Shown: in pieces, positions 47,920-61,876 of the stretch
How the letters are laid out: each line of letters opens with the position of its first letter
How positions within the stretch are numbered: position 1 is the stretch's first letter
Source: Rhodothermales bacterium
GTDB taxonomy: Bacteria > Bacteroidota > Rhodothermia > Rhodothermales > UBA10348
Assembly (NCBI GenBank): GCA_028284865.1
Contig: JANQQV010000023.1
Location: 1-64,000 of the forward strand
Direction: 5' to 3'
DNA length: 64,000 nucleotides
The notes under the pieces: model-generated
Told to the model about the DNA's origin: nothing
What the model saw: only the letters and a program-made list of their open reading frames with translations
The model's database searches: none
Program-made: the position numbers and the translations under genes

Positions 47920-49278
47920 TTACTTGTCCCGGTTCTTGATTTCGACCGAGTTGCCAGCTTCTTCAGAAACCTGAGCGTCAAAACGCTCCAGGGAACGACG
48001 GACCGACTCCCGCTGCGTCTGCAGCAGATCGTTGGGCAGATCGCGCATCATGCGAGCGCGGATCGGATCCACGACATTGGCTTCGAGAGAAATGACCAGC
48101 TCTTTCTGGGTCACACTCTTCTGGGTGCGGCCGAAGATGTAGCGGAATCCGAAGAACCATTTCGGCATGTCCTTCAGGATGGGGACGCCGCGACGAGAGA
48201 TGGACTCCTCTGTGCTGTACAGACCACCTATCACGGTCTGCTCGCCGTCGAGCATCAACAACTGGGTATTGGCCAGGCTGCGATCAATAGTCGGACCCGT
48301 GGCAGAAGGCCGGCTTCCGGACTTCTCGACTTTCACCTCCAGGTGAAGGAATTCGGCTACGGGAGCTCCGAGCGTATCTGCAAGTGGCTGTTCGATCAGA
48401 GTCGGAGTGACCTCGATGATGATCCCCGTCTTGAAATACTGGGTCGCGATGTTGCCAAACGTATCACGGATCTGGACCGGAACGTCCGAGCCGATCTGGA
48501 TATCGCCTTGTTCTCCGCTCTGCACCGTCACGGACGGGTTGGCGACTGTCTCTCCAACACCGGTGGCTTCGGCCAGACGGAACAGGGAGTTCAGATTCTT
48601 GAAATCGATCTGGCTGGGGGCCTCGATAACGTCTTCCATCCCTTTGAAGAGGTCATCCGTCTTCAACAGGAAGGTCAGCTGGTTTTCTGAACCGCCGCCT
48701 GAAGACGATCCGCCACCGCCTGTCCCACCGGTTGAGCCAAAAAGGACACTCCAGTCGATGCCCGAATCCTTGGCCTTCGTGTGGTTCAGCTCGAACAGAA
48801 CAGCTTTGATTTCAATCTGGCGCGTATCCAGGGTAGCTGGGGCAAGCGTGCTTCCCTCGGAAACACCTCTGTCTGTACCCGTGGCCGCATCGGCGTCCAG
48901 AATCAAGTCCTCTACGACTTTCTGCTGGATCATGAAGTAGCGCTCGGTCTCACGGTATTCCAGATCGTTGTACTGGAGAACCAGCTCAAGCGCATCCAGA
49001 AAGTGCATTCCCGAAATGGAAATGCCGATCGGGTGATCCCGGGTATCCGGATCCACCAGTGTTTTGCCGGCAACCCGCTCAAAAATGGGATTCAGATAGT
49101 CTGTAAACCGGTCAAATGGCGTCGAGGGCAGGAAAGACACCAATTGATCGGGTGGGATGTAAGCGCGAACCTGGCGCTGCTGCGCCTGTGCGGAGGATGA
49201 AGTGGCGACCAGGCCGATCCAGCACATGCTGGTCAGCAACAGGATCTGCCCCATCCGTTTCCAAGTCGTTCCATTCAT
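47920..49278 (-). CDS. Secretin of a type IV pilus/type II secretion-like system
   Basis: The 452-residue protein has a signal peptide (ending SAQAQ), a short N-domain (about 35-125, LNPIFERVAGKTLVDPD, ISGMHFLDALELVLQYN), a Gly/Ser-rich loop (GGTGGGGSSSGGGS, about 195-208) and a C-terminal secretin domain (GVGETVANPSVTVQSGEQGDIQIG, DGEQTVIGGLYS, RRGVPILKDMPKWFFGFRYIFG). The last segment is the diagnostic VPxLxDIPxLGxLF equivalent. It would form the outer-membrane ring. It has only a minimal N-terminal part, shorter than GspD or PilQ. It is the fourth gene of the operon starting at 53607. Confidence 0.9.
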   Translation of the reverse strand: MNGTTWKRMGQILLLTSMCWIGLVATSSSAQAQQRQVRAYIPPDQLVSFLPSTPFDRFTDYLNPIFERVAGKTLVDPDTRDHPIGISISGMHFLDALELVLQYNDLEYRETERYFMIQQKVVEDLILDADAATGTDRGVSEGSTLAPATLDTRQIEIKAVLFELNHTKAKDSGIDWSVLFGSTGGTGGGGSSSGGGSENQLTFLLKTDDLFKGMEDVIEAPSQIDFKNLNSLFRLAEATGVGETVANPSVTVQSGEQGDIQIGSDVPVQIRDTFGNIATQYFKTGIIIEVTPTLIEQPLADTLGAPVAEFLHLEVKVEKSGSRPSATGPTIDRSLANTQLLMLDGEQTVIGGLYSTEESISRRGVPILKDMPKWFFGFRYIFGRTQKSVTQKELVISLEANVVDPIRARMMRDLPNDLLQTQRESVRRSLERFDAQVSEEAGNSVEIKNRDK

Positions 49279-49300: not shown

Positions 49301-50302
49301 TCAATAGTTTCTTGCTGGTGACAGCTGTACGTTTCCGCGGGCCTGGTTGTACAGCTGGTCCAGGTCCATGCTCAGCTCGATTCGCTCAAGGATGCCTCCC
49401 TTGTTCAAGCTTGCAATGACCTTTCCCTCTCTTGGATCGACGGAAATCACCTGACCTAAATAGACCGGGTCGCCGATTGCTACACTGAATTCCTCGTCTT
49501 CCCAGATCAGGACTGCCCGATCGCCGACGATGGAAACGAGCGTGGCTTCCGCCATGTCCAGCAGGCCTTTCGTATTGGGAGGAATATTCTCAAGGATGAG
49601 TGGTGTGAAGGGATCGCTTGCCGCCCGTGGAGCCGGCAACACGTGGGCCGGGACGTTTGGCAGGGATGTAGACATGTCGGTAGCGCTGAAATTCAGGCTC
49701 TGCGGTGCTCCTTCAGCTGAATCCGATGCACTAAGCCCTACAGCGCCTCCGAAATAGGCGTGCAATTCGAAGGTGAAGCTGACCATAAGGTCCATGCGCT
49801 TCCCTCCGGTCAGCGGATCGTCAGAGATCACTTCCGAGTGATCCAGTTCAAGTTCCTCGATGCGGAACAGCTGACGGTCATTCTCGATGCTCCATACCAG
49901 TTCATAAAGCGCATCGAAATCGCCTCGTCCATCGACCTCAAAAACGTATCGATTGAAGTCATCCGTCTCCGCCAACTCGTCGAATGACACATTGAACACC
50001 TCGAAGCCATATTCGGAGTGATCGTTCATGAAGCGGATGACTTCTTCTGAACCGAGCGTGCGGGGAACGACTTTGTAGCGTGCATTCCATCGCGTAACGA
50101 CACTGTTTGCAACTCCCTCGGAGTCTCCCATTTCGGCCATGAGTGAAGCCAGTTCGGCCTGCTTCATGCGCGCCACCTGCTCGGCCTTTTCCAGGCGCTC
50201 CAGCTCATCAGGCTGCATGAAGTAGGTGGCGTAGATACCGCCGCCAGCCGCGAAGAGCCAGCAAACGGAAAGGATGACCAGGTTCTGGATGAGATTCGAC
50301 AT
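49301..50302 (-). CDS. PilO/PilP-like alignment protein
   Basis: The 333-residue protein has one membrane helix (LVILSVCWLFAAGGGIYATYFM, about 8-29), a coiled coil (DELERLEKAEQVARMKQAEL), a ferredoxin-like region (about 100-190) as in PilO/GspM, and a C-terminal beta domain (about 255-333, AEATLVSIVGDRAVLIWEDEEFSVAIGD, GKVIASLNKGGILERIEL) resembling PilP/GspC homology regions. This points to a fused alignment subunit that bridges the inner-membrane platform and the secretin. The ATG at 50300-50302 has a strong GGAGGA site. It is 4 nt after the PilM-PilN fusion gene. Confidence 0.8.
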   Translation of the reverse strand: MSNLIQNLVILSVCWLFAAGGGIYATYFMQPDELERLEKAEQVARMKQAELASLMAEMGDSEGVANSVVTRWNARYKVVPRTLGSEEVIRFMNDHSEYGFEVFNVSFDELAETDDFNRYVFEVDGRGDFDALYELVWSIENDRQLFRIEELELDHSEVISDDPLTGGKRMDLMVSFTFELHAYFGGAVGLSASDSAEGAPQSLNFSATDMSTSLPNVPAHVLPAPRAASDPFTPLILENIPPNTKGLLDMAEATLVSIVGDRAVLIWEDEEFSVAIGDPVYLGQVISVDPREGKVIASLNKGGILERIELSMDLDQLYNQARGNVQLSPARNY

Positions 50303-50306
50303 GGAA

Positions 50307-52241
50307 TTATCCTCCAGCCTCGGTTGGTTCACCGGTCGACAGGACGTCTTCCGGACGCAGAATCGCTTCTCCCGACTCAACGGGCTCAGCCGTCGCTTCC
50401 GACAGAGGCTGCTGATTGAATTGTCCGCTCGCGATTTCCGCAGCGTGCTCACGCAGGTAGTATGCGGCGTCGGGAAGACCGCGATGAATGAGCATGGTCA
50501 TCTGGAATTCGAAGACCGGGACTCCACGAATCTCCGCGTAAGTGATCTGCTCAATAATGGCTTCGGCTCGCGAAGCAAATTCCACGATTCGATTGCGATC
50601 GAGAGCTGTTCCAGTCATGACCAGCTCGCCGTCGCCTTCCTCTCCCCAGCTTCGAATCCAGAGCCCATCTACTTCGCCCGTGTTCGCGGCAGTGCGCTCG
50701 AGTGCGCGACTCCACACATCACTGCCTACCAGCAACGAGTCCAGTACATCGAGGGCTTCAACGAAGCCATTGGAACGCATGCGCAGACTGTCTATCCGGG
50801 ATTGCAGATCGCCTGCGTCACCTGAAATGGTCTCCTCAGGATAGTTTCGCAGCTCGAAGCGAACCATCTCGATCTCGTGACTCTGCGCGAAGTAGCGTTG
50901 TACGAAAAACAACGTCGTGCTGAAAAGGATGAGGATCATCGCCGCCACCGGCCACGAGAAAGGCAGGGTGAACTTGCGACCGCGAAGCTGTGGATCCAGG
51001 AGCGACGTCTCAGGAAAAACGGATTCCCAGAGCTCATCGCGGACCAGGCGAAGCCCGGCCAGAATGGCCAGCAAGGTTTCCGTCTGCAGTGGATCCTTTG
51101 ACACCTCCTCAAATGGAGGCATGATGTGACGCAGCAACGTGATGGTCGAATCAGGGAAGACCATCTCGAGTCGTTCCCGAATGGCGGTTTCTGATTCGTC
51201 GCAGAACAGCAGGATCCGATCCGAATCGCCGGCTCCAAACTCATCGTACATGAGCAGGATGCGACTGCAGATTGTGTCTGTCGGGTCAAATGCCGTGATG
51301 GAGCGGAGTGATTCGTAGTGAACGAGCTCCTGCCCTACCATGAACATGACCAACGTATCGTCAGCACCCACGCGGATCACGACCGACGTTTCTTCTTCAT
51401 GCTCGGGATCGTTGCTGATCGGCTCTGCGGATGCCGTCTCATTCATCACTTCGGCAACAGCATCGTAGCGATACTCAGCCAACAGGGATGCACGAGCGGC
51501 TCCCAGAAGCAAACTGACTTCGTTGTCAAGCAGAGCGACACCCGGGAACGGACGCTTACGATTGCGAATCGCCTTCAGGGACGGGGTGACCGGTTCATTC
51601 GACTGGGAATAGAGAGCCAATCTGGCTTCTTCCTTCCCATTGAAATCGAACAACGGCAAGAATGCTACCTGATGATCCTCGATAGCTGGATTGCTCTTCT
51701 GAAGCTGCTTGATCAGCGCTTCCCGGGTGTTCGATTTCTTCTTGGACTTCTTCTTGGCTTTCTTGCCATCCTTCGCTGAGCCGTCTTTGGACTCTGCATC
51801 GGCTTGCGTAATCGAAAAGACCTCTGACCCGAGGTAATCTGAGGGAAGCGCAAACACGACGCGGACATTTTCATATCCGGCATCCGCGCACTCGGAAACG
51901 ATATCCTGGATCTCCAGATCACACGGCACCGCCAATTGGGTCGGTGCCATGAGTTCGGAATCCATGCCTTCCTCGACAGGGAGATCACCAAACTCGGAGG
52001 CCAGGAACATGCCAGCGTTCACGCCGCTGTCCTCTGTAGCCTGGAAGGAGACATCGCTCGGGATGTCGTCCTGGATTTCAGGGGCCTCGACGGCCATCAT
52101 ATCGACGCCGGCACGCTTGCGTACAAACGTCCGCAATACGACCGGACCTGTTGCCGTGTCGTGCAGCAATACGGCCTGGATGCGCCGACTCGACGGCGCA
52201 ATCGCCAGGATGAACTCGCTCTTTGTGCTGTACTTCAACAT
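50307..52241 (-). CDS. PilM-PilN-like fusion protein
   Basis: The 644-residue protein starts with an actin-like fold similar to PilM/GspL (SEFILAIAPSSRRIQAVLL ... NVRVVFALPSDYLGSEVF). A highly basic insert (KKAKKKSKKKS, about 160-170) follows. One membrane helix (WPVAAMILILFSTTLFFV, about 412-430) leads to a PilN-like periplasmic part with coiled coil and a small alpha/beta domain (LWIRSWGEEGDGELVMTGTALD). In most systems PilM and PilN are separate proteins that bind each other; here they appear joined, as in GspL. The C-terminal 45 residues are acidic and low complexity. It is in an operon with the PilT-like ATPase (8-nt gap). Confidence 0.82.
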   Translation of the reverse strand: MLKYSTKSEFILAIAPSSRRIQAVLLHDTATGPVVLRTFVRKRAGVDMMAVEAPEIQDDIPSDVSFQATEDSGVNAGMFLASEFGDLPVEEGMDSELMAPTQLAVPCDLEIQDIVSECADAGYENVRVVFALPSDYLGSEVFSITQADAESKDGSAKDGKKAKKKSKKKSNTREALIKQLQKSNPAIEDHQVAFLPLFDFNGKEEARLALYSQSNEPVTPSLKAIRNRKRPFPGVALLDNEVSLLLGAARASLLAEYRYDAVAEVMNETASAEPISNDPEHEEETSVVIRVGADDTLVMFMVGQELVHYESLRSITAFDPTDTICSRILLMYDEFGAGDSDRILLFCDESETAIRERLEMVFPDSTITLLRHIMPPFEEVSKDPLQTETLLAILAGLRLVRDELWESVFPETSLLDPQLRGRKFTLPFSWPVAAMILILFSTTLFFVQRYFAQSHEIEMVRFELRNYPEETISGDAGDLQSRIDSLRMRSNGFVEALDVLDSLLVGSDVWSRALERTAANTGEVDGLWIRSWGEEGDGELVMTGTALDRNRIVEFASRAEAIIEQITYAEIRGVPVFEFQMTMLIHRGLPDAAYYLREHAAEIASGQFNQQPLSEATAEPVESGEAILRPEDVLSTGEPTEAGG

Positions 52242-52248
52242 GCGTGTG

Positions 52249-53607
52249 CTACTTGGCCAATTGCTGGAATCGGCGCTTGTTGTTGGCGTGGTCCAAAGCC
52301 ACGTCCGGGGTGATCAGCCCCTGACGCATCAGGCGATAGAGATCCTGTTCGAGTGTGATCTGGCCGATATTCCAGCCCTCCCACATCATCTGATAGATCT
52401 CGTTGGTATTGTCATTCTTGATGGCAGCGCGAGCCGAAGGCGTCATCCAGAGCACTTCCTTCGCGAGGATGCGACCACCACCTACTTTGGGCAGCAGTTT
52501 CTGGGAGATGATGCAGCGCAGCACATCAGCCAGTCGGTTGCGCACTCGGCTCTGTTCTTCTGAAGGGTATTCGGCAATGATGCGATCGATGGACTCTACA
52601 GCGCTGGACGTATGCAGCGTTGAGAACACCTTGTGGCCCGAGTCGGTAATCTCGAGGGCAGCCGAAATCGTGGACGGATCGCGCATCTCTCCGATAACGA
52701 CGATGTCAGGATCCTGGCGAAGGGCCTGGACGATGCCTTCCTTGAAGGTCGGGACGTCCTGTCCTACTTCACGGTGACGGATGATGCACTTGCGACTCTC
52801 GTGGACGTACTCGATCGGACGCCCAATGATGATGCAGTGGCCGTGTACATCGTCGTTGTTTGCGTCAACGATGGAATCCAGCGTTGTCGATTTTCCGGAT
52901 CCGGTGACACCGGTTACCAGCGTGAGACCATCGCGCACGTGCCGGAATTTCAGGCCTTTCTCGATGCTTGGATGAAATGCGAGGCTCTTGAGTGAGCGGA
53001 TGTCAGCGGTGATGGCACGCATGTTCAGTGCGAGATAGCCCATATCGAGATACGCCGTCGCACGGAATCGTTGGCTGCGGATCCCTGCGCCCTCCTGAAG
53101 CTCATAGGAGAAGTCGGCCGAGTTGCTTTCCATGAGTGCGTGCATTCCGCGCTTGCTCAGCAAACTCATGATCAAAAGAGATCCTTCATCAAGTGAGAAT
53201 CGCGGAATGTTCAGGTCGGGCCGCTTTTCACCATCAATCCTGAACCAGATGAAGCCGCCAGCGCTGGCACCGCCAAGGTCTATGTCCGACGCACCGTTCG
53301 TGGCCATTCTTCCCAGGAAGGAGTCCATGTAGCGGCGTAGCGAAGCCTTGTCGCGGGAGTCGATTTTTGAAAGCTTTTCTGCTTGGTGGCGAATACGGTC
53401 GATGCCAACCAATCCGCCTGGAGTGCTTTCAGCAATTGTTTGAACAAAAGCAGGGAGGTCCGTCATTTGTGCGTAGGAAGAAGAACGGGATGGGGCCCGC
53501 CCAAGTGCTCCATTTTGCCTGCGATTCTCTCCACGACGCGATGTGCCCTCCTTCACGGGAGCGCCTGATTCGGTTCGGTTCGAAAATCGAATGTTGCGTG
53601 TCGCCAT
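52249..53607 (-). CDS. PilT-like secretion/retraction ATPase with altered Asp box
   Basis: The 452-residue ATPase has a Walker A GVTGSGKSTTLDSI, Walker B DIVVIGEMRD, His box VFSTLHTSSAVESIDRII and the PilT-like C-terminus QITLEQDLYRLMRQGLITPDVALDHA. The Asp box, usually TIEDPIEFVH, reads IIGRPIEYVH, losing the acidic pair. The first 60 residues are basic and disordered. The ATG at 53605-53607 is chosen since the sigma-28-type promoter lies just upstream (53666-53690) and earlier starts would precede it; ATG 53466 is an alternative. It is the only motor ATPase in the window and heads the pilus operon. Confidence 0.9.
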   Translation of the reverse strand: MATRNIRFSNRTESGAPVKEGTSRRGENRRQNGALGRAPSRSSSYAQMTDLPAFVQTIAESTPGGLVGIDRIRHQAEKLSKIDSRDKASLRRYMDSFLGRMATNGASDIDLGGASAGGFIWFRIDGEKRPDLNIPRFSLDEGSLLIMSLLSKRGMHALMESNSADFSYELQEGAGIRSQRFRATAYLDMGYLALNMRAITADIRSLKSLAFHPSIEKGLKFRHVRDGLTLVTGVTGSGKSTTLDSIVDANNDDVHGHCIIIGRPIEYVHESRKCIIRHREVGQDVPTFKEGIVQALRQDPDIVVIGEMRDPSTISAALEITDSGHKVFSTLHTSSAVESIDRIIAEYPSEEQSRVRNRLADVLRCIISQKLLPKVGGGRILAKEVLWMTPSARAAIKNDNTNEIYQMMWEGWNIGQITLEQDLYRLMRQGLITPDVALDHANNKRRFQQLAK

Positions 53608-53665: not shown

Positions 53666-53690
53666 TATCGGCTGACGGTGCCTTCACTTA
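53666..53690 (-). promoter_or_regulatory. Sigma-28-type promoter of the pilus machine operon
   Basis: On the minus strand TAAG (53690-53687) is followed after 14 nt by GCCGATA (53672-53666). The FliA/WhiG consensus is TAAA-N15-GCCGATAA. The first gene of the operon (PilT-like) starts about 59 nt downstream. This copy has a spacer one base shorter than the other four. Confidence 0.75.
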
Positions 53691-53739
53691 AGCGAAAATG
53701 CCCCCAAGTGCAGGTGCCACAATGCATCCAGAATGCACA

Positions 53740-53770
53740 ACGCGCCCGCGGCCAGAGGCCGCGGGCGCGT
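53740..53770 (-). terminator. Strong GC hairpin after the subtilisin lipoprotein gene
   Basis: A perfect 14-bp stem (ACGCGCCCGCGGCC / GGCCGCGGGCGCGT) with a 3-nt loop lies 60 nt after the protease stop and 50 nt before the pilus operon promoter. After it the minus strand reads TGTGCATT, so the U-tail is poor, but stem strength and position fit a terminator. Confidence 0.65.
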
Positions 53771-53829
53771 CAAATCTTGTGGAGAATCCCATCCGATTGG
53801 ACCGATTCTCCGGCGATGTATGGCCAGGA

Positions 53830-55149
53830 CTAGTTCCCTACCCAGACAGAGCGTCGCGTGGTTGCACGGGCCGCATTACGGACCGACTTGCGTGCATCCC
53901 GCTTCAGGGCACGGGCCACTTCACGCGGGCTAGCAGTCGGATGCTGCGCCAGATAGAGCGCTGCGGCGCCCGTCACGTGGGCAGCTGCGAGCGAAGTACC
54001 CGACATCACGGAGTAGTCGTTGCCAGGTGCCAGGGAGAACACATCCTCGCCGGGTGCCTGAAGGTCCACGAGTGCGCCGTAGTTCGACCAGGGCGAGAAC
54101 ACGTGATTACGATCGTGCGAACCAACTGTGATGGCATCAATGACGTGGGCTGGCGTGAATTTGCGAGCCGCATCACCAGCATTCCCTGCTGCCACCACAA
54201 CGGTGATACCGGCATCGATAACCGAGCGAACAGCGTCGTCCAGGGCAGTGCGCTCCCAACCCACTTCTGCACCGAGGCTGAGGTTGACCACGGCCGGTTT
54301 GTCTGGATTGGCATTCTTCCATTCCAGAACGTCTTCCAGAGCGGCAATGACGTAGGTATCGTCACCGAATCCATCGTTATCGAATACCCGATAGTTGTGG
54401 ACACGAGCTCCAGGCGCAACACCAACGATGCCACCGTTATCGTCCTTGGCTGCGGCAATACCCGCGATGGCCGTTCCATGCCCATCCACATCTTCGGTTG
54501 AACCGGAGAATGCATAATCACGGGAATCAACGACGTTCAAGTCCGGACTGGAGACACCGGTATCGACTACGAAAATGTCGATATCGACTTCACCCTGTCC
54601 GTCACCGGAGACAGACCAGCTTGCTGGTGCGCCGACATCCGTAATGGACCAGGGCAAACGCTGCGTGGTACCTGCCATGCTGCGCTGTCCCGGGGCAGAC
54701 TGAACCGGAAATACCGGCTCAACCCAGGCAATCGTCTCGTCCTGCTCCATGAGTGCCAAGATCTCATCGAGATACTCGGTGGACACCCATAGTGAGTAGC
54801 CGTAGAACGTATTGGTGAACTCGTAGCGATCGACAACCTCATACCGATCGACGACCTCGTAACGATCAACGACTTCGTAACGGTCAACGACTTCATAGCG
54901 ATCGACCACTTCGTATTGGTTTACAATGCGATAGGGATCGATGGCGAAAACGATGGCTGTTTGCTCACCATACTTGCCCGCAGCCTTGATGGCCTGGTCA
55001 AACAGATGAGCGTTGCGGATCTTCGGGGTGTTTTCGGATGCTTCTTCCTGTTGCGTGTTGACTACCTGATCAGCGCAACCGGTCATGATCACCATTGCCA
55101 GCAGGGCGACGGGGATCCGGTAAGCGAAGCGTTTGAGGAGTTCAGACAT
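53830..55149 (-). CDS. Subtilisin-family (S8) lipoprotein protease with RYEVVD repeats in its propeptide
   Basis: The 439-residue protein has a lipobox (LAMVIMTGC, Cys25). Residues about 65-152 look like an I9 inhibitor/chaperone propeptide (AIVFAIDPYRI, then FYGYSLWVSTEYLDEIL, TIAWVEPVFPV) into which five YEVVDR repeats (79-110) are inserted. The S8 catalytic domain follows with Asp196 (FVVDTG), His224 (DGHGTAIAG), oxyanion Asn323 (AAGNAG) and Ser386 (SGTSLAAAHVTG). It is probably anchored to the outer membrane and self-processed. The ATG at 55147-55149 precedes the signal; the sigma-28-type promoter at 55232-55257 links it to the pilus genes, so it may process pilin-like or surface partners. 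Confidence 0.9.
   Translation of the reverse strand: MSELLKRFAYRIPVALLAMVIMTGCADQVVNTQQEEASENTPKIRNAHLFDQAIKAAGKYGEQTAIVFAIDPYRIVNQYEVVDRYEVVDRYEVVDRYEVVDRYEVVDRYEFTNTFYGYSLWVSTEYLDEILALMEQDETIAWVEPVFPVQSAPGQRSMAGTTQRLPWSITDVGAPASWSVSGDGQGEVDIDIFVVDTGVSSPDLNVVDSRDYAFSGSTEDVDGHGTAIAGIAAAKDDNGGIVGVAPGARVHNYRVFDNDGFGDDTYVIAALEDVLEWKNANPDKPAVVNLSLGAEVGWERTALDDAVRSVIDAGITVVVAAGNAGDAARKFTPAHVIDAITVGSHDRNHVFSPWSNYGALVDLQAPGEDVFSLAPGNDYSVMSGTSLAAAHVTGAAALYLAQHPTASPREVARALKRDARKSVRNAARATTRRSVWVGN
54820..54915. repeat. 18-bp (6-codon) repeats encoding YEVVDR, five copies
   Basis: Five consecutive hexapeptides (Y-E-V-V-D-R) plus a sixth decayed copy (YEFTNT) are encoded on the minus strand. The copies differ at synonymous third positions, which suggests the protein sequence has been selected after the repeat arose. 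Confidence 0.9.
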
Positions 55150-55231
55150 GACAGAGTCGAGTGTCTGGTGAAGGGAAAATGGATGTGATCGGTTTGTGGA
55201 CCGATCGGGGCGGTAGTCCATTCATGGTCAG

Positions 55232-55257
55232 TATCGGCGGGCTGAATAGCCGTCTTA
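55232..55257 (-). promoter_or_regulatory. Sigma-28-type promoter of the subtilisin lipoprotein gene
   Basis: TAAG (55257-55254), 15-nt spacer, GCCGATA (55238-55232) on the minus strand, matching TAAA-N15-GCCGATAA. The ATG of the protease lies about 83 nt downstream. Confidence 0.8.
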
Positions 55258-55306
55258 AGCCGCCCTCCTACCTGATTGACCCACACAAATGCTGTTCGCA
55301 ACGGAA

Positions 55307-55336
55307 GAGGGCGCGCGGCTTTCGCCGCGCGCCCTC
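55307..55336 (-). terminator. Hairpin terminator after the first SDK-repeat gene
   Basis: A perfect 13-bp stem (GAGGGCGCGCGGC / GCCGCGCGCCCTC) with loop TTTC lies 28 nt past the stop. The minus strand continues TTCCGTTG, a modest U content. The core GCGCGCGGC-TTTC-GCCGCGCGC is shared with the terminator at 57900-57927. Confidence 0.7.
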
Positions 55337-55363
55337 ACTTCGGGTACACCGGGTCAGCACTGA

Positions 55364-57778
55364 CTACTTGGGAGTGTCGCCAAACAGCTCCCTGGCATTG
55401 CGGATGGCCGTGCCGTTGGCCAGTCGCGAACCGGATTTCTGAATGCCCTCTCCCGCGTCTCCAACCAATCGTTCCATGGTTTTGCTGGACGTCTGCATGA
55501 GCTGGCGGGCTTTCGGCGTTCCGTCGGCCATGTCGAGTTGCTCCAGCATGTCCTTCAGGCCTTTGAGAGCAGAGCCGTTATAGGAGACCACCGATTCATC
55601 GAGCATGATGAATGTGATACCAGACCCCTCTGCATCCCCATTCTCATTGGACTGCGCACAATCACCAGAATTGTCCCAAGTGACATCGCCATACCACTGT
55701 GCGTCGTTCGCCCAGCCGGAATCATCCCACTCTTCCCAGTCGGATTTCTTGTTCGATTTCCCGGACTTCTTGGACGACTTCTCAGATGAATCGTACCACT
55801 TTTTACTGGATTTCCCGGACTTGTCCGACTTGTCCGACTTGTCGGATTTATCGCTCTTGTCCGACTTGTCGCTCTTGTCTGATTTCTTGCTGGACTTCTT
55901 GCTTGAGCCGCTGCCCGGGGTCAAGAGCACGGCTTCGACGAACAGACTGAATGCCTTGCTTGCCGACATCGTGACTCCGCCTCCCAGTCCAGCCATGTTG
56001 AGCCCATGAGGATCGCTATCGGCATGTCCGAAATCCTTGTCTGATTTCTTGCTGGACTTATCTGACTTGTCAGACTTATCGCTCTTGTCAGACTTGTCGG
56101 ATTTGTCGGATTTGTCGGATTTGTCGCTCTTATCAGACTTATCCGACTTATCGCTCTTGTCGGATTTATCTGATTTATCCGACTTGTCGCTCTTGTCCGA
56201 TTTACCGTTGCGCTTGCGTTTACCCCACTTACTCTCGCGCTCTGTCCAGTCCGAGTAATTGTCATTGTCATCTTCGGATACACACAGCGTGTCATCACCC
56301 GAATATGAGGATCCGTTCTGCGCAATCCACTCACTGGCATTGACAAACGCTTCGTTCCGGTCGCAGGTGTTCACGCCATCTTTCGGCTTCCAGTGGTGAT
56401 ACACACTCAACTCGTACAGGAGCTCGTCATCGTCAGCGTCGAAAACCTGGATGGTCAACGAGCCGTTGCGATTGTGCACGTCGTCTTGCACGTCGCTTGG
56501 TTTTGACGGCGCAAGAGCGCACAGCGATGTGAACGTGTAGGTGAAGATCTCCAGATCGCGCGGATCAATCGTCAGGTCCAGTGACTCGGTGGAGCTACCC
56601 GTGTAGGTGGTGTGGCCGACTTTGATCTGATAGGATCCTGCGCTGTTGTTCGAATTGATGGTTTTGATGCGAACATCCTCATCAACCGATCCCATCACGT
56701 TGTCCCAACACAGTCCGCCTTTCTTGCAGCCTGCACTGAGTACATCCACACCTTTGGTGTCGTACTTGTCGTCGTACTTGTGCTCGTGATAGATCTCCCG
56801 CTTGCTTTCCGGATAATCAAAGACGTCCACATCAAAGTGACCTCCAGGTAGCCCCCGATCAGACTCATCGATGGGATCTGGCTCCAGATGGCCACCTGAA
56901 TCCTGACCGTCGACGATCAACGCGCCGTCGATCATGGACTGATGCTCCATCTTGAAGTTGGAGTCCTTACCACTCTGATAAACGATTCCGTGCCAAACAG
57001 CATTGTCCATGAAGGTGATATCCCCTTCAACGAACAGGGCGCCGTATCCCTGAAATCCCCCTTGCAGCACCAGATCTCCAGTGATCTGTACGACAGCAGG
57101 TGCAATCTGGCTACCTACGTTGTTTTCTTCGTTCCAGGTCTGGTTCTCTGACACATTGAGCCGGTTGGGACCGGCGTAGTCCTTGAGGGACGAGCGCAGG
57201 ACGGCCATTTCGATGTACGGGTCGCCTTGGATGACATCCCCGGAACCGCCGTAGCCCGTGATGTGTGCGGGTTCTTCGGAAAAAGACTCGAATGCAGGTG
57301 AGTTGGTAGCCAGCAGGCCGTGCACGTGGGGTCCTGGACCAATCCCGCCTTGATCAAGGCCGCTGATTCGGGATTCATCCTCCAGGGAAACGCTCGTGAT
57401 GGGTGCCATGATCGTCACGGCATCGAGAACGGTCTGGATGTCCCGCGAAACGGTACCTATGATTTCATACTCGTGATCACCGTACTTCCCGACCGCAATG
57501 ATCGTGACGGTGCCATCTTCTCCATCCACGGCTCCAATGTCGTAGCGAGCCTTGCCGTACTGCACGTCCGTAGCAACACTGCGATAGGACTCGAAGCTCC
57601 TGCGGACTTTTGAACTGACAATGTTGTAGGCGCTGACGGCGGTCTCGCGGGCGATGACTTCAGACTTGTACTCCGCTTCTACCTGCGCCGATGCCAGGTC
57701 GCTCTGCGTTCCGGCCATGTACATGGATCCCAGCGAAAGCGTGGTCGCCATGACGAATACGAGGACTCCCTTACCCAT
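55364..57778 (-). CDS. PilX-like pilin-associated protein with Ser-Asp-Lys repeat tracts, copy 1
   Basis: The 804-residue protein begins with a pilin/PilX-like hydrophobic segment (GKGVLVFVMATTLSLGSMYMAG) without a clear prepilin peptidase site. Then come a helical stretch (YKSEVIARETAVSAYNIVSS), a parallel-beta region resembling PilX C-terminal or bactofilin-like folds (GDLVLQGGFQGYGALFVEGDITF), a Cys-containing domain (SAGCKKGGLCW), and low-complexity tracts: 16 consecutive SDK units (residues 527-574) and a second Ser/Lys-rich tract of 55 residues with seven SDK units (625-679). A final Trp/Asp-rich segment (WEEWDDSGWANDAQWYGD) and a helical tail follow. It is a tandem paralogue of the next gene. 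Its sigma-28-type promoter is at 57825-57850. Function unknown; a structural pilus tip or surface filament component is inferred. Confidence 0.82.
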   Translation of the reverse strand: MGKGVLVFVMATTLSLGSMYMAGTQSDLASAQVEAEYKSEVIARETAVSAYNIVSSKVRRSFESYRSVATDVQYGKARYDIGAVDGEDGTVTIIAVGKYGDHEYEIIGTVSRDIQTVLDAVTIMAPITSVSLEDESRISGLDQGGIGPGPHVHGLLATNSPAFESFSEEPAHITGYGGSGDVIQGDPYIEMAVLRSSLKDYAGPNRLNVSENQTWNEENNVGSQIAPAVVQITGDLVLQGGFQGYGALFVEGDITFMDNAVWHGIVYQSGKDSNFKMEHQSMIDGALIVDGQDSGGHLEPDPIDESDRGLPGGHFDVDVFDYPESKREIYHEHKYDDKYDTKGVDVLSAGCKKGGLCWDNVMGSVDEDVRIKTINSNNSAGSYQIKVGHTTYTGSSTESLDLTIDPRDLEIFTYTFTSLCALAPSKPSDVQDDVHNRNGSLTIQVFDADDDELLYELSVYHHWKPKDGVNTCDRNEAFVNASEWIAQNGSSYSGDDTLCVSEDDNDNYSDWTERESKWGKRKRNGKSDKSDKSDKSDKSDKSDKSDKSDKSDKSDKSDKSDKSDKSDKSDKSDKSSKKSDKDFGHADSDPHGLNMAGLGGGVTMSASKAFSLFVEAVLLTPGSGSSKKSSKKSDKSDKSDKSDKSDKSDKSDKSGKSSKKWYDSSEKSSKKSGKSNKKSDWEEWDDSGWANDAQWYGDVTWDNSGDCAQSNENGDAEGSGITFIMLDESVVSYNGSALKGLKDMLEQLDMADGTPKARQLMQTSSKTMERLVGDAGEGIQKSGSRLANGTAIRNARELFGDTPK
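55742..55906. repeat. Second Ser/Lys-rich tract of SDK protein copy 1 (seven SDK units plus SSKK variants)
   Basis: This 165-bp minus-strand coding stretch encodes 55 residues made of SSKK, SDK and SGK units, with seven SDK in a row. Ser codons alternate between AGC and TCN, so the DNA is a degenerate 9-bp repeat. Confidence 0.9.
56057..56200. repeat. SDK tract of copy 1: 16 consecutive units
   Basis: 144 bp encoding (Ser-Asp-Lys) x16 on the minus strand, flanked by the basic GKRKRNGK and by SSKKSDK. Units are 9 bp, with synonymous variation between nearly every neighbour (GAC/GAT, AAG/AAA, AGC/TCN). Confidence 0.92.
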
Positions 57779-57824
57779 AACGGTATCTCGATACTATTAA
57801 GAAAGTGAGGGGGTCATCGACTCT

Positions 57825-57850
57825 AATCGGCAGTCGATAAGGCCGTCTTA
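57825..57850 (-). promoter_or_regulatory. Sigma-28-type promoter of SDK gene copy 1
   Basis: TAAG (57850-57847), 15-nt spacer, GCCGATT (57831-57825) on the minus strand. The ATG is about 47 nt downstream. The downstream stretch CGATGA-CCC is shared with the promoter of copy 2. Confidence 0.78.
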
Positions 57851-57899
57851 AATCCAGGGCATCTTTTTCTCGATTCGATCGAATGGGTCCAAATGAAAA

Positions 57900-57927
57900 C
57901 GGGCGCGCGGCTTTCGCCGCGCGCCCG
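57900..57927 (-). terminator. Rho-independent terminator after SDK gene copy 2
   Basis: A perfect 12-bp stem (CGGGCGCGCGGC / GCCGCGCGCCCG) with loop TTTC is followed on the minus strand by TTTTCATTT. It lies 28 nt after the stop, exactly as far as its twin lies from copy 1. Confidence 0.8.
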
Positions 57928-57955
57928 AATTAAACCGTCTTCGTGTAGGATATCC

Positions 57956-60472
57956 CTACTTGATCGTCGGAGATGAAATGGTCGGCGAAGAAATCTTGGT
58001 GTTCACCGACGACTCCAGCTTCGGCTCGTACCCGATCAGATCGCGGGCATCCTTGATCATGTCCTCGTTCGTGAGACGCGTACCCGTTTTCTGCATGTCC
58101 TCGAGGGCTTCCATTTTGTCCATTTCAGCCTGCGTATAGGTCGACTTCCGAGCCGTCTGGGCCATCTGGCGTGCAATCGGCTTGCCGTCCGACATATCGA
58201 ACTCGTTCAGCATGTTCTTCAGGGCTTTCAAAGCCGAAGCGTTGTACGAGATGGTAGCGTCATCAGACATTGTGAACGTGATTGAGGATGAACCGACGTT
58301 GTCATTCTCGTTCGAGCGAGCGCAATCACCAGAATTGTCCCAGTAGATATCGCCATACCAACCGGCGTCGTTGTGCCAGTCTGAATCATCCCAGTCGGCA
58401 TAGTCCGACTTCTTCTGGGATTTGGCTGACTTCTTGGACGACTTGTCGGACTTCTTACTCGACTTGTCGCTCTTGTCCGACTTGTCAGATTTGTCCGACT
58501 TGTCAGATTTCTTGCTGGACTTGTCACTCTTGTCTGACTTGTCCGACTTTTTGCTCGACTTTTTGCTCGAGCCGCTGCCTGGAGCCAGCAACACCGCCTC
58601 GACAAACAGACCGAATGCTTCGGTTGCCGTGATTGTGAGGCCACTGCCAAGACCTGCATTGTTCATGCCGTACGTGTCGCCGTCGGCGCTACCCCAGCTC
58701 TTCTTGCTGGACTTCTTCGAGGACTTGTCGGACTTCTTGCTCGACTTGTCGGACTTGTCCGATTTGTCGGACTTGTCCGATTTGTCGGACTTGTCCGATT
58801 TGTCGGACTTGTCGCTCTTGTCAGACTTATCTGATTTGTCGCTCTTGTCAGACTTGTCGCTTTTGTCAGACTTATCTGACTTGTCGCTCTTGTCCGACTT
58901 GCCATTCCGCTTGCGCTTGCCCCACTTGCTCTCGCGCTCGGTCCAATCGGTGTAATTGTCGTTGTCGTCTTCCGAGACGCACATGTCGTCATCACCCGCA
59001 TATACGGAGCCGTTTTCAGCAATCCACTCGCTTGCGGAAAGGAAGGCTGCCTGACGATCGCAGACGTCACCGTCTTTTTCTTTCCAGTGGTGATATACCG
59101 CGACTTCGTACAGCATATCGTCGCTGCTCGCGTCAAACACCTGCACGGTGAAGGCACCATTGCGACTATCCGTGTCATCCTGAACGTCACTCGGCTTGGA
59201 AGCGGCCAGCGAGCACAGAGATGAGAAATCGAATGTGAAAATCTCCAAATCGCGTGGATCTACGGTGAGATTCAGTGACTCGGTCGTGCTTCCTGTATAG
59301 GTAGTCCCACCCGCCTTGATTTGATATGTACCTGAGCTCAAGCCGGCATTCATTGTGCGAATCGTCACATCATCAGTGACTCCACCCATAACCTGGTCCC
59401 AACACAGACCCGGCTTTTTACAACCTGCGCTCAGGATATCGATGCCAGTGACATCGTACTTGTCGTCATACTGGTGCTCGTGATAGATCTCCTTGGAGCT
59501 GCCTTCCTCGTCGAAAATATCAACGTCGAAGTGTCCTCCGGGAAGCCCACGATCCATTGGGCTGATTGGAGCGGGATTGATCTGATCACCGGAGTCAGTG
59601 CCGTCCATGACCATGGCGCCGTCAATCATGGAGTCGTCCGTCATGCTGAAATCCACATCGGATCCAGCTTGGTACACGACACCGTGCCACGTCGCACCGT
59701 TGCGCATCGAGAAGTCGCCTTCCACAAACAGGGCTCCATACCCCGTGAAGTCTCCTTCCAGTACCAGATCACCTGTCATCTGGACGATGACGGGTGAGCC
59801 AATGCTACCCATACTGTTGTCTTCGTTCCAGGTCGCGTTTTCGGAGACCACCAGACGGTTGCCACCAGAGTACTCCTTGATTGAACTGCGCAGGTTGGCA
59901 ATTTCGATATACGGATCGCCCTGAATGACATCACCTTCCCCACCACTACCCGTGACGTGAGCACCTTCATCAGCGAAAGCATCATAGGCCGGCGTGTTCG
60001 TTGCCAGGACGCCATGGACGTTCGGACCTGAACCGGCACCACCGCGGTCCAAACCCGTGATCAACGCATTGCCACTCATATCGACATCGGCAATCGGTGC
60101 CATGATCGTCAATGCATCCAGGACGGTATCTGCATTTCGGGAAACTGACCCAATGATCTCGTATTCGTGGTCCCCGTACTTGCCGACAGCGATAATGGTA
60201 ACCGTCCCATCGTCAGCCTCAACGGCTCCGATGTCGTACTTCGCTTTCCCGTACGCTACGTCCGTGGCAACGCTACGATAGGAATCGAAGCTGCGACGGA
60301 CTTTCGAGCTGACAATATTGTAGGCGCTCACGGCGGTCTCGCGCGCAATGACTTCCGCCTTGTAATCGGCTTCGTTCTTGGCGTTTTCGAGTTCGTTTGC
60401 CGAGCCGGCCATGTACATGGCTCCCAGAGAGAGCGATGAGGCCATGACGAAGATGAGGACTCCTTTACCCAT
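57956..60472 (-). CDS. PilX-like pilin-associated protein with Ser-Asp-Lys repeat tracts, copy 2
   Basis: The 838-residue paralogue of the previous gene shares its whole layout: N-terminal hydrophobic segment (GKGVLIFVMASSLSLGAMYMAG), the helix YKAEVIARETAVSAYNIVSS, the beta region (GDLVLEGDFTGYGALFVEGDFSM), SAGCKKPGLCWDQVMGG, 17 consecutive SDK units (526-576), the AFGLFVEAVLLAPGSGSSKK bridge, a second 55-residue Ser/Lys tract (635-689), the Trp/Asp segment and a helical tail. It adds about 30 C-terminal residues (ISSPTISSPTIK ending). The two proteins look like subunits of one surface structure. Its sigma-28-type promoter is at 60520-60545. Confidence 0.82.
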   Translation of the reverse strand: MGKGVLIFVMASSLSLGAMYMAGSANELENAKNEADYKAEVIARETAVSAYNIVSSKVRRSFDSYRSVATDVAYGKAKYDIGAVEADDGTVTIIAVGKYGDHEYEIIGSVSRNADTVLDALTIMAPIADVDMSGNALITGLDRGGAGSGPNVHGVLATNTPAYDAFADEGAHVTGSGGEGDVIQGDPYIEIANLRSSIKEYSGGNRLVVSENATWNEDNSMGSIGSPVIVQMTGDLVLEGDFTGYGALFVEGDFSMRNGATWHGVVYQAGSDVDFSMTDDSMIDGAMVMDGTDSGDQINPAPISPMDRGLPGGHFDVDIFDEEGSSKEIYHEHQYDDKYDVTGIDILSAGCKKPGLCWDQVMGGVTDDVTIRTMNAGLSSGTYQIKAGGTTYTGSTTESLNLTVDPRDLEIFTFDFSSLCSLAASKPSDVQDDTDSRNGAFTVQVFDASSDDMLYEVAVYHHWKEKDGDVCDRQAAFLSASEWIAENGSVYAGDDDMCVSEDDNDNYTDWTERESKWGKRKRNGKSDKSDKSDKSDKSDKSDKSDKSDKSDKSDKSDKSDKSDKSDKSDKSDKSDKSSKKSDKSSKKSSKKSWGSADGDTYGMNNAGLGSGLTITATEAFGLFVEAVLLAPGSGSSKKSSKKSDKSDKSDKSSKKSDKSDKSDKSDKSDKSSKKSDKSSKKSAKSQKKSDYADWDDSDWHNDAGWYGDIYWDNSGDCARSNENDNVGSSSITFTMSDDATISYNASALKALKNMLNEFDMSDGKPIARQMAQTARKSTYTQAEMDKMEALEDMQKTGTRLTNEDMIKDARDLIGYEPKLESSVNTKISSPTISSPTIK
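58406..58570. repeat. Second Ser/Lys-rich tract of SDK protein copy 2
   Basis: 165 bp encoding 55 residues: SSKK blocks alternate with runs of three and five SDK units, then SAKSQKK. It has the same length as the matching tract in copy 1 but a different internal order of blocks. Confidence 0.9.
58745..58897. repeat. SDK tract of copy 2: 17 consecutive units
   Basis: 153 bp encoding (Ser-Asp-Lys) x17, one unit more than the copy 1 tract, in the same place after GKRKRNGK. Units vary synonymously. Confidence 0.92.
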
Positions 60473-60519
60473 GGTGGTGCCCCAAATGAGGGATTGTAGT
60501 TGAAGGGTTCATCGGTTGG

Positions 60520-60545
60520 AATCGGCCATGCGATACCCCGACTTA
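60520..60545 (-). promoter_or_regulatory. Sigma-28-type promoter of SDK gene copy 2
   Basis: TAAG (60545-60542), 15-nt spacer, GCCGATT (60526-60520) on the minus strand. The ATG is about 48 nt downstream. It begins 50 nt after the stop of the small pilin-like gene, so the duplicated unit contains its own promoter. Confidence 0.78.
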
Positions 60546-60594
60546 AGCCTTCCAGCAGGAATCCGTACAGTCTGCAAAGACCCGCTCAGGCCGC

Positions 60595-61170
60595 TCAGGA
60601 ATCGAGCGCTGGCGGCCGGACCGTAATGCCCCAATAGCTCCGGAAGAGATCCATATCATCCGCATCTCCCATGCCATAGACATTGATGGCGCGGACGCGT
60701 AGCAGTCTTGCCGACTCCACGGATCCGGTCGTACTTCCTGACTCGTCGAGCATGGTGATGGAAAAGGCCTGCAAGGTTGAAGAGCCTCCTCCAGCCGCTG
60801 CGTCGTCTTCGGTCCGGAAAAGCCGATAGAGCTGCACTTTTTCGCCATCCACATCCACGACATCTCCCTCTTCCAGCGTGTACGAAACCAGCATGTCGAC
60901 ACCCATTTCGTCTTCGCGCCAGAATGAGAATTCGGTCGTTTGGCCGTCGTCATTCGTCTCGATTGTCTCGATGGTGTCATCCGTTCCGTCTCCGACCAAC
61001 AACAGGTCGTCTTCCAGGAAGTCGGCCAGGTTCAGGGTCTGCACTTTTGCTGCGTAAGCGACCGTCTCTTCGATGGCTGCTCGCTGTGCATTCAGATTCG
61101 TCGCAATGACGAGAAGAAGGACAGCTCCCGATACGAGGATGGACGCTATGTGATCAAGAAGAAACTGCAT
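60595..61170 (-). CDS. Small pilin-like membrane-anchored protein
   Basis: I do not recognise a named family. The 191-residue protein has one N-terminal helix (ASILVSGAVLLLVIATNLNAQ, about 9-29) followed by a helical stretch (RAAIEETVAYAAKVQTLNLADFL) and an acidic beta-rich domain with Thr/Asp-rich loops. This is the lollipop shape of pseudopilins, but no prepilin peptidase motif is visible. It ends RSYWGITVRPPALDS. It starts 4 nt after the stop of the companion gene upstream and shares its promoter. Confidence 0.72.
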   Translation of the reverse strand: MQFLLDHIASILVSGAVLLLVIATNLNAQRAAIEETVAYAAKVQTLNLADFLEDDLLLVGDGTDDTIETIETNDDGQTTEFSFWREDEMGVDMLVSYTLEEGDVVDVDGEKVQLYRLFRTEDDAAAGGGSSTLQAFSITMLDESGSTTGSVESARLLRVRAINVYGMGDADDMDLFRSYWGITVRPPALDS

Positions 61171-61173
61171 CGA

Positions 61174-61563
61174 CTATTCGGAAATGACGCGCGTGAGTGT
61201 CACGAGAGCAACGGTATAGCGATCGCTGGTCGCCTGAATGGCTACCTCTTTATTCGAGGTCTCGCTCTCCGAAGGCGTTCCATCGTCATCGACAAACTGA
61301 ACGCTGATGGCCAGGGTGAATTCGATGTCGCCATTGTGGACTTCAAACTCTGCGTCGATCTCATCCCCATCCCAGTCTTCCAGATCATCCCAGTCCGTGG
61401 TCATGTCGATGACCTCCAGCTGTTCGACCACGAGGGCATTTGCCATCAGCTCGAACTCCGTCCGATAGGCTTCATCGTAGGCCTGCATCTGGGACGTGTA
61501 CTGGTTGATGGCTGCCAGTGCGGCAATCATCATGGCCAGGAATGCCATCAGGGTCTGACTCAT
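61174..61563 (-). CDS. Small pilin-like membrane-anchored protein
   Basis: The 129-residue protein has an N-terminal hydrophobic helix (MAFLAMMIAALAAINQYTSQ, about 6-25) running into an amphipathic helix (AYDEAYRTEFELMANALVVEQL), then an acidic beta domain (DDLEDWDGDEIDAEFEV, FTLAISVQFVDDDG). Shape and size suggest a minor pseudopilin without a standard processing site. It is the first gene of a two-gene unit under the sigma-28-type promoter at 61604-61629. Confidence 0.72.
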   Translation of the reverse strand: MSQTLMAFLAMMIAALAAINQYTSQMQAYDEAYRTEFELMANALVVEQLEVIDMTTDWDDLEDWDGDEIDAEFEVHNGDIEFTLAISVQFVDDDGTPSESETSNKEVAIQATSDRYTVALVTLTRVISE

Positions 61564-61876
61564 CGAGCAAGGAAAGGAATGGAATGGATGTGCACAGTGT
61601 CAGTATCGGCTGGTGCCCGGACACCGTTAAATGGGTTTTCCACAACAAGTCGCAAAACGCTTAAATCGCTCGCCCGCACGGTCGATGATGAAGGGGCACC
61701 CTCCTCTGGGGTGAACCAAAATCGGGACAGGGGCCATATGGGATCGGATGCGGCATTTGAGGGGGTGCCCCGTCCGGTCCCGGCTCTCCCGGTTTTTTTT
61801 GTTTGAGCCCCGGCGACAAGCTATTTGCCCTGAAGCGCATCCGTTCGTAGGATCGGTCGAACCAGATCCCGAATCG
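61564..61876. other. Divergent intergenic region between pilin-like genes and M28 peptidase
   Basis: These 313 nt contain the sigma-28-type promoter (61604-61629) for the minus-strand unit. An inverted repeat GGGGCACCC (61693-61701) / GGGTGCCCC (61763-61771), extended by CCTC/GAGG with one bulge, spans the middle. A T8 run follows a GC-rich stretch near 61793-61800. I found no clear promoter for the peptidase and no gene. Confidence 0.5.
61604..61629 (-). promoter_or_regulatory. Sigma-28-type promoter of the two small pilin-like genes
   Basis: TAAC (61629-61626), 15-nt spacer, GCCGATA (61610-61604) on the minus strand. It continues CTGAC, as does the promoter at 55232-55257. The first ATG lies about 41 nt downstream. 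Confidence 0.78.

Follow-up and report, generated by a model that had tools for sequence, protein, structure and literature searches.

A stretch of 64,000 nucleotides from a Rhodothermales bacterium (assembly GCA_028284865.1, contig JANQQV010000023.1, positions 1 to 64,000; hereafter the window) carries on its minus strand five elements of the form TTAA(G/C)-N14-15-GCCGAT(A/T), each positioned 40-82 nucleotides before a gene. As judged from sequence comparison, these elements are very probably the -35 and -10 halves of promoters read by FliA, the flagellar sigma-28 factor encoded on contig C10 of the same genome, and they would represent an ancestral regulon of flagellum and pilus that here covers pilus, SDK-repeat and protease genes. 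The window forms part of contig C18 of a 3.48-Mb genome in 28 contigs (G000). The elements are given below, each with the distance that separates its -10 element from the likeliest start codon.

61604..61630, minus strand: predicted sigma-28-type promoter of unit 1, TTAAC-N15-GCCGATA, 40 nucleotides before the ATG at 61563.
60520..60546, minus strand: predicted sigma-28-type promoter of unit 2, TTAAG-N15-GCCGATT, 47 nucleotides before the ATG at 60472.
57825..57851, minus strand: predicted sigma-28-type promoter of unit 3, TTAAG-N15-GCCGATT, 46 nucleotides before the ATG at 57778.
55232..55258, minus strand: predicted sigma-28-type promoter of unit 4, TTAAG-N15-GCCGATA, 82 nucleotides before the ATG at 55149.
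53666..53691, minus strand: predicted sigma-28-type promoter of unit 5, TTAAG-N14-GCCGATA, 58 nucleotides before the ATG at 53607; a counterpart lies upstream of 25 of 30 PilT-like orthologs.

Promoters of the FliA/WhiG type follow the pattern TAAA-N15-GCCGATAA. A first-pass annotation of this DNA had claimed five such sites on the minus strand, each 40-85 nucleotides before the first ATG of a unit and matched nowhere else in the window, and these claims survive scrutiny. All five sites are present, and the 64 kb contain five matches to TTAA-N15-16-GCCGATW against an expectation of 0.03 from 100 dinucleotide-preserving shuffles, none of which held more than one match. On a matrix derived from these sites, the elements reach 19.2-21.5 bits, and the best score at any other separate position in the window is 13.8. 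The measured distances agree with those claimed provided that the protease start is taken at the lipoprotein signal; the first in-frame ATG of that unit lies about 10 nucleotides from the -10 element, but the lipoprotein signal begins at 55149.

A sigma factor able to account for these sites is found in the genome. The C10 gene encodes a FliA/WhiG sigma factor with regions 2, 3 and 4 (PF04542, PF04539, PF04545) that scores 196.7 bits against TIGR02479 (cut-off 189.6) and is the sole protein of the genome above this curated threshold; it falls narrowly below the narrower FliA model PRK06986 (187.5 of 201). Two other proteins match TIGR02479 less well, one a paralog encoded on C8 (152 bits), the other RpoD-like and encoded on C22. 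A search for FlhA found none in this genome, and the cell should therefore have no flagellum. FlgM is the usual cognate anti-sigma factor of FliA and not part of the sigma factor itself. No FlgM was found in G000 by Pfam PF04316 or by alignment of FlgM proteins from the order, searches that a very diverged FlgM could escape. Thus, of the sigma-28 homologue and anti-sigma factor whose presence the first-pass annotation proposed to check, the former was recovered and the latter was not.

The predicted regulon extends beyond the window. Sites across the genome were listed by pattern searches together with a matrix scan of selected stretches. TAAG-N14-15-GCCGAT occurs seven times in the 3.48 Mb (four in the window and one each on C1, at the sigma-factor locus of C10 and on C19), against three occurrences of the reversed pattern, and TTAA-N15-18-GCCGATW occurs ten times, five of them in the window, against one. 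Elsewhere the motif is rare, and it concentrates on pilus genes. The refuting conditions of the first-pass annotation that sequence can address, namely lack of a sigma-28 family gene and an equal rate of the motif at unrelated genes, were checked and did not apply. The C1 site lies about 55 nucleotides before a pilin gene (MGQQQLLLL...), and the neighboring pilin gene has a one-mismatch site, TTAAG-N14-GACGATAC, 83 nucleotides upstream; both genes precede PilC-type and PilB-type genes (PF00482, PF00437). The pilus genes of this genome are therefore split between C1 (pilins, PilC and PilB) and C18 (PilT-like, PilM/N-like, PilO-like and PilQ-like genes with small pilin-like genes), and the motif marks both unlinked loci. 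The idea of a single regulon of pilus, SDK-repeat and protease genes is supported, with the amendment that it reaches outside the window to both C1 pilins.

The protein families encoded at the two loci, namely T2SSE twice (PilT-like in the window and PilB-like on C1), T2SSF on C1 and a secretin in the window, suggest a type IVa-like pilus with extension and retraction ATPases, a platform protein and a secretin. The structure model of the first C1 pilin (mean predicted local distance difference test score, pLDDT, 86.6) has a helix at residues 3-55 and four strands, and this predicted long N-terminal helix and beta-sheet are those of a pilin fold. Its best matches in the PDB by VIA-align are PilE (Z 8.9), PilV (8.4) and full-length PAK pilin (7.5); Foldseek alone returned no significant match for the model against the PDB. 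The MGQQQ pilins match no prepilin family in Pfam, do not carry the classical prepilin N-methylation signal and have an atypical leader (MG-QQQLLLL).

Beyond the pilus loci, a SpoIID-domain gene on C19 (L033:5332-6984, minus strand) has a weaker upstream site, TTAAA-N15-GTCGATAC, and a SpoIID-domain gene of the flagellated relative G015 (L180:470-1894, plus strand) likewise has a sigma-28-like site upstream; the regulon perhaps includes the C19 gene. A match at C12:26485 lies about 32 nucleotides before a gene for a 215-residue protein without a known family. Two further matches are probably due to chance and were set aside: the one at C8:72093 is an inverted repeat close to a MraZ-like gene, and the one at C23:227939 precedes a large, unrelated gene.

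Conservation of the motif across the order is a further line of evidence. Our comparison set comprised 50 genomes, G000 included, 41 with a FliA ortholog and 16 with FlhA. Upstream regions of PilT-like genes carry the motif in 25 of 30 genomes, ranging from the same genus to other families, whereas the reversed sequences gave it in none of 30 and Markov shuffles gave 2 in 600 at the same threshold. Similarly, about 44 of 54 pilin upstream regions across the order scored at least 13, and no reversed ones did. In these sites the spacers vary freely while the two blocks are kept, and the sites point towards the gene, mostly 34-180 nucleotides before its start. Furthermore, the motif of flagellated relatives precedes flagellin (PF00669; G015 and G028), MotA (G028), FliS (G028 and G036) and S8 proteases (G015 and G036); pilins, PilT-like genes and MGKG-type proteins of such relatives also have it upstream. 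As the motif is common to flagellar and pilus genes in these relatives, one sigma factor probably served both in their ancestor.

The sigma factor itself points the same way. Its closest flagellated orthologs (G036, G015, G019 and G022) are 75-77% identical to the G000 protein, and in G036 about 3 kb separate fliA from flhA, which lies upstream of it. In the sigma tree, sequences of flagella-less genomes are nested among flagellated ones with three to four label changes, and hence the simplest reading is that lineages lost the flagellum and retained FliA, bearing in mind that some of the draft genomes may be incomplete. Confident FlgM matches were obtained in all 16 FlhA-bearing genomes and in no genome without a flagellum. 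A contig search based on the sigma sequence added five further loci from metagenome-assembled genomes, two of them titled Rhodothermales. The proposal of an alternative sigma factor dedicated to a surface filament is supported with an amendment: the motif is concentrated on pilus genes, but the sigma factor is an ortholog of flagellar FliA and not a separate pilus sigma factor. Its 'dedication' to the filament in this genome reflects only the lack of a remaining flagellum.

Comparison of genomes with and without the sigma factor gave a matching picture. The motif outnumbered its reversed form by 409 to 147 in the 41 sigma-bearing genomes, by 214 to 44 in the 16 flagellated genomes and by 195 to 103 in the 25 that bear the sigma factor and lack flagella. 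The five clean sigma-less genomes (G029, G039, G040, G043 and G049, from three families) had no motif excess (25 to 41), no PilT-like gene and no pilin. A PilT-like gene is present in 35 of 41 sigma-bearing genomes versus 0 of 9 sigma-less ones. Fisher and rank tests for these comparisons were significant, but ignore relatedness.

Several points weigh against reading the elements as FliA promoters. We infer FliA binding, and transcription starts at the predicted promoters, from sequence. The genome comparisons are not phylogenetically independent. The genome-wide excess in flagella-less sigma-bearing genomes is modest (1.9-fold), and many single matches in such genomes must therefore be due to chance. 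PilT-like genes of G033, G034 and G045 have no motif upstream, that of G031 and G044 is weak or absent, and some pilins likewise lack one (e.g. those of G046 and the first pilin of G034). Most importantly, no FliA ortholog was found in G002, G004 and G021 (L222, L209 and L213), yet good sites stand upstream of their pilins; possibly the sigma gene is missing from these assemblies or was lost recently. For this reason a strict 'natural knock-out' comparison within the genus (G002, G004, G018 and G021) was dropped, as G002, G004 and G021 keep good pilin sites.

The most serious competing explanation is that the elements are promoters of another sigma factor, either the FliA/SigB-type paralog on C8 or a primary factor of the RpoD type, which we regard as unlikely. 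The C8 paralog does match TIGR02479, albeit below the cut-off, and G002 combines a C8-type paralog and a pilin site with the lack of a detected FliA ortholog. However, C8-type paralogs were found in only about 10 of the 50 genomes and the sites are kept in genomes without one (G007, G009, G011, G036 and others), while the flagellin, MotA and FliS genes that the motif precedes in flagellated relatives are standard FliA targets. Sigma-70-type promoters for the window units were sought and rejected, as a scan of 52-62 kb gave one match versus 5.4 in shuffles. Less probable still, and in our view most improbable, is that a transcription factor uses the elements as operators and that they are not promoters. 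Operators can also be fixed two-block sites, but here the two halves fit the sigma-28 -35 and -10 elements, are correctly spaced (N14-15 after TAAR) and point towards the gene, and on the coding strand of 52-62 kb no other promoter-like element was found. That the five sites are chance matches or duplicated copies without regulatory meaning is scarcely credible: units 2 and 3 encode paralogs and could share a copied promoter, but the other three units are unrelated, the count far exceeds the 0.03 expected by chance, and sites recur at equivalent genes across the order with differing spacers.

Taking FliA as the factor that reads these promoters, a mechanism can be proposed. RNA polymerase carrying FliA would bind the five sites and start five units, encoding respectively a small pilin-like pair, SDK-repeat protein 1, SDK-repeat protein 2, a subtilase lipoprotein, and PilT-PilM/N-PilO-PilQ. 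The same FliA would read both promoters of the pilin genes that lie with PilC and PilB at the unlinked C1 locus, such that filament subunits, SDK-repeat proteins, subtilase and the retraction and secretin machinery would be made together. A single FliA may have driven both the flagellar late genes and the type IV pilus in the order's ancestor; the flagellum and FlgM would then have been lost, with FliA and the pilus promoters kept. Control of FliA may now lie with the kinase and NtrC-type regulator encoded beside fliA, and perhaps with a small membrane protein encoded just upstream.

On C10, a small membrane open reading frame and fliA directly follow genes for an HDOD protein, a histidine kinase and an NtrC-type regulator, and the G036 counterpart of this regulator converges on FlgM within the flagellar cluster. 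We consider the kinase and NtrC-type regulator pair the likeliest upstream input to FliA. Upstream of the fliA operon (L028:9900-10045) there are GGAAA-N4/5-TTTCC palindromes, present in relatives too, which are possible binding sites of the neighboring regulator. The small open reading frame (L028:9461-9802, minus strand), 33 nucleotides upstream of fliA, encodes a membrane protein of about 110 residues with a conserved LLLGD...HR segment; it is present in flagellated and flagella-less relatives and has no confident Pfam family. A full-score sigma-28 site (L028:9870-9896, plus strand; C10:69869-69895) lies between the NtrC-type regulator and the operon of the small reading frame and fliA, and points away from fliA towards the 3' end of the regulator gene. 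Many family members without flagella have a comparable antisense site at roughly this position, and downstream of it no open reading frame is conserved. This site is possibly a feedback promoter, the promoter of a small RNA, or a relic of a fliS-flgM operon promoter. The membrane protein and the site pointing away from fliA are thus candidate replacements for FlgM. The flagellar export gate normally frees sigma-28. It is tempting to speculate, albeit tentatively, that a sigma-28 factor without FlgM or export gate has been rewired as a pilus sigma factor and placed under other control, by the membrane protein together with the kinase and NtrC-type regulator, or by feedback through the conserved antisense site.

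The genes of the five window units, and one further feature between them, are as follows.

61174..61563, minus strand: pilin-like protein of 129 amino acids (unit 1) with an N-terminal hydrophobic helix; homologs hold the equivalent position in G015, G028 and G032, and no Pfam or NCBIfam family matched.
60595..61170, minus strand: second small pilin-like protein, 191 amino acids (unit 1), with no confident Pfam or NCBIfam family.
57956..60472, minus strand: MGKG-type SDK-repeat protein 1, 838 amino acids, with 27 SDK and 8 SSKK; MGKG-type homologs in relatives, no Pfam family.
57900..57927, minus strand: hairpin resembling an intrinsic terminator between units 2 and 3, 12 GC pairs followed by TTTTC.
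55364..57778, minus strand: MGKG-type SDK-repeat protein 2, 804 amino acids, a paralog of SDK-repeat protein 1, with 24 SDK and 5 SSKK.
53830..55149, minus strand: subtilase (S8) lipoprotein (PF00082, E 2.2e-40).
52249..53607, minus strand: PilT-like retraction-type ATPase (PF00437, E 3.8e-32; TIGR01420 316.1 bits, just under the cut-off of 319.1).
50307..52241, minus strand: PilM/PilN-like protein, assigned by position and layout (gene order as in relatives), with no family match.
49301..50452, minus strand: PilO-like protein, assigned by position, with no family match.
47920..49278, minus strand: PilQ-type secretin (PF00263, E 6.8e-26; TIGR02515 82 bits, below cut-off).

The gene order of this cluster is common to relatives, with motif sites before several of its units. 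In both SDK-repeat paralogs (55364-60472) the SDK/SSKK runs sit on an MGKG pilin-like N-terminus, and no such runs were flagged in the MGKG-type homologs of relatives in the cluster comparison. In the subtilase lipoprotein, five VVDRYE repeats in tandem separate the lipoprotein leader from the protease domain.

Taken together, our findings offer, by comparison of genomes, an example of a flagellar regulator that has persisted beyond the flagellum: within one order, swimmers carry the motif on flagellar as well as pilus genes, and lineages without flagella carry it on pilus-type genes alone. A survey from 2025 reported FliA matches in 41% of non-motile genomes (PMC12199754), and the order-wide motif pattern suggests why FliA persists in such genomes. 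It also raises the question of how sigma-28 stays in check without FlgM and the export gate. In annotation of Rhodothermota, the motif could help to flag surface-filament genes, including those for proteins without a family.

Control of pili by sigma factors of the FliA/WhiG type is already known from other phyla. The closest parallel is Rubrobacter radiotolerans, in which a sigma factor of the flagellar clade (FliA/WhiG) has TAAA/GCCGATAA promoters in a multi-unit type IV pilus cluster, the predicted promoters of the WhiG/RsiG system at these genes being backed by start-site mapping (PMC8325347). That organism belongs to the Actinobacteria, and its anti-sigma factor RsiG, reported from Actinobacteria only, senses cyclic-di-GMP (PMC8325347); the sigma factor described here is instead orthologous to the FliA of close flagellated relatives and has SDK-repeat proteins and a subtilase in its regulon. 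FliA also drives pilin genes (Tad/Flp) in Bdellovibrio, although the pilins are co-regulated with flagellins there and the system is of the type IVb Tad kind and not a PilT/PilQ system (PMC5430801). Non-flagellated Legionella oakridgensis likewise kept FliA after loss of the flagellar regulon; according to the portion of that report drawn on here, it differs in having kept FlgM, of which none was found in our genome, and no pilus regulon is described in that portion (PMC5655016). In Nostoc punctiforme, the alternative sigma factor SigF is strictly required for the major pilin gene pilA, but its regulon is extremely limited, no consensus could be derived and the lineage is cyanobacterial (PMC6495340). 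Actinoplanes missouriensis, as cited in PMC8325347, has flagellum and type IV pilus genes under WhiG-like sigma factors, as we propose for the flagellated relatives, although from that citation the setting is the zoospore stage of an actinomycete with its flagellum present. Our literature search found no paper on a link between FliA and pili in Rhodothermota. What the present case adds is another phylum, a regulon that the pilus shares with the flagellum throughout an order, a FliA without detectable FlgM, and the inclusion of uncharacterized SDK-repeat proteins and a subtilase among the genes that it would control.

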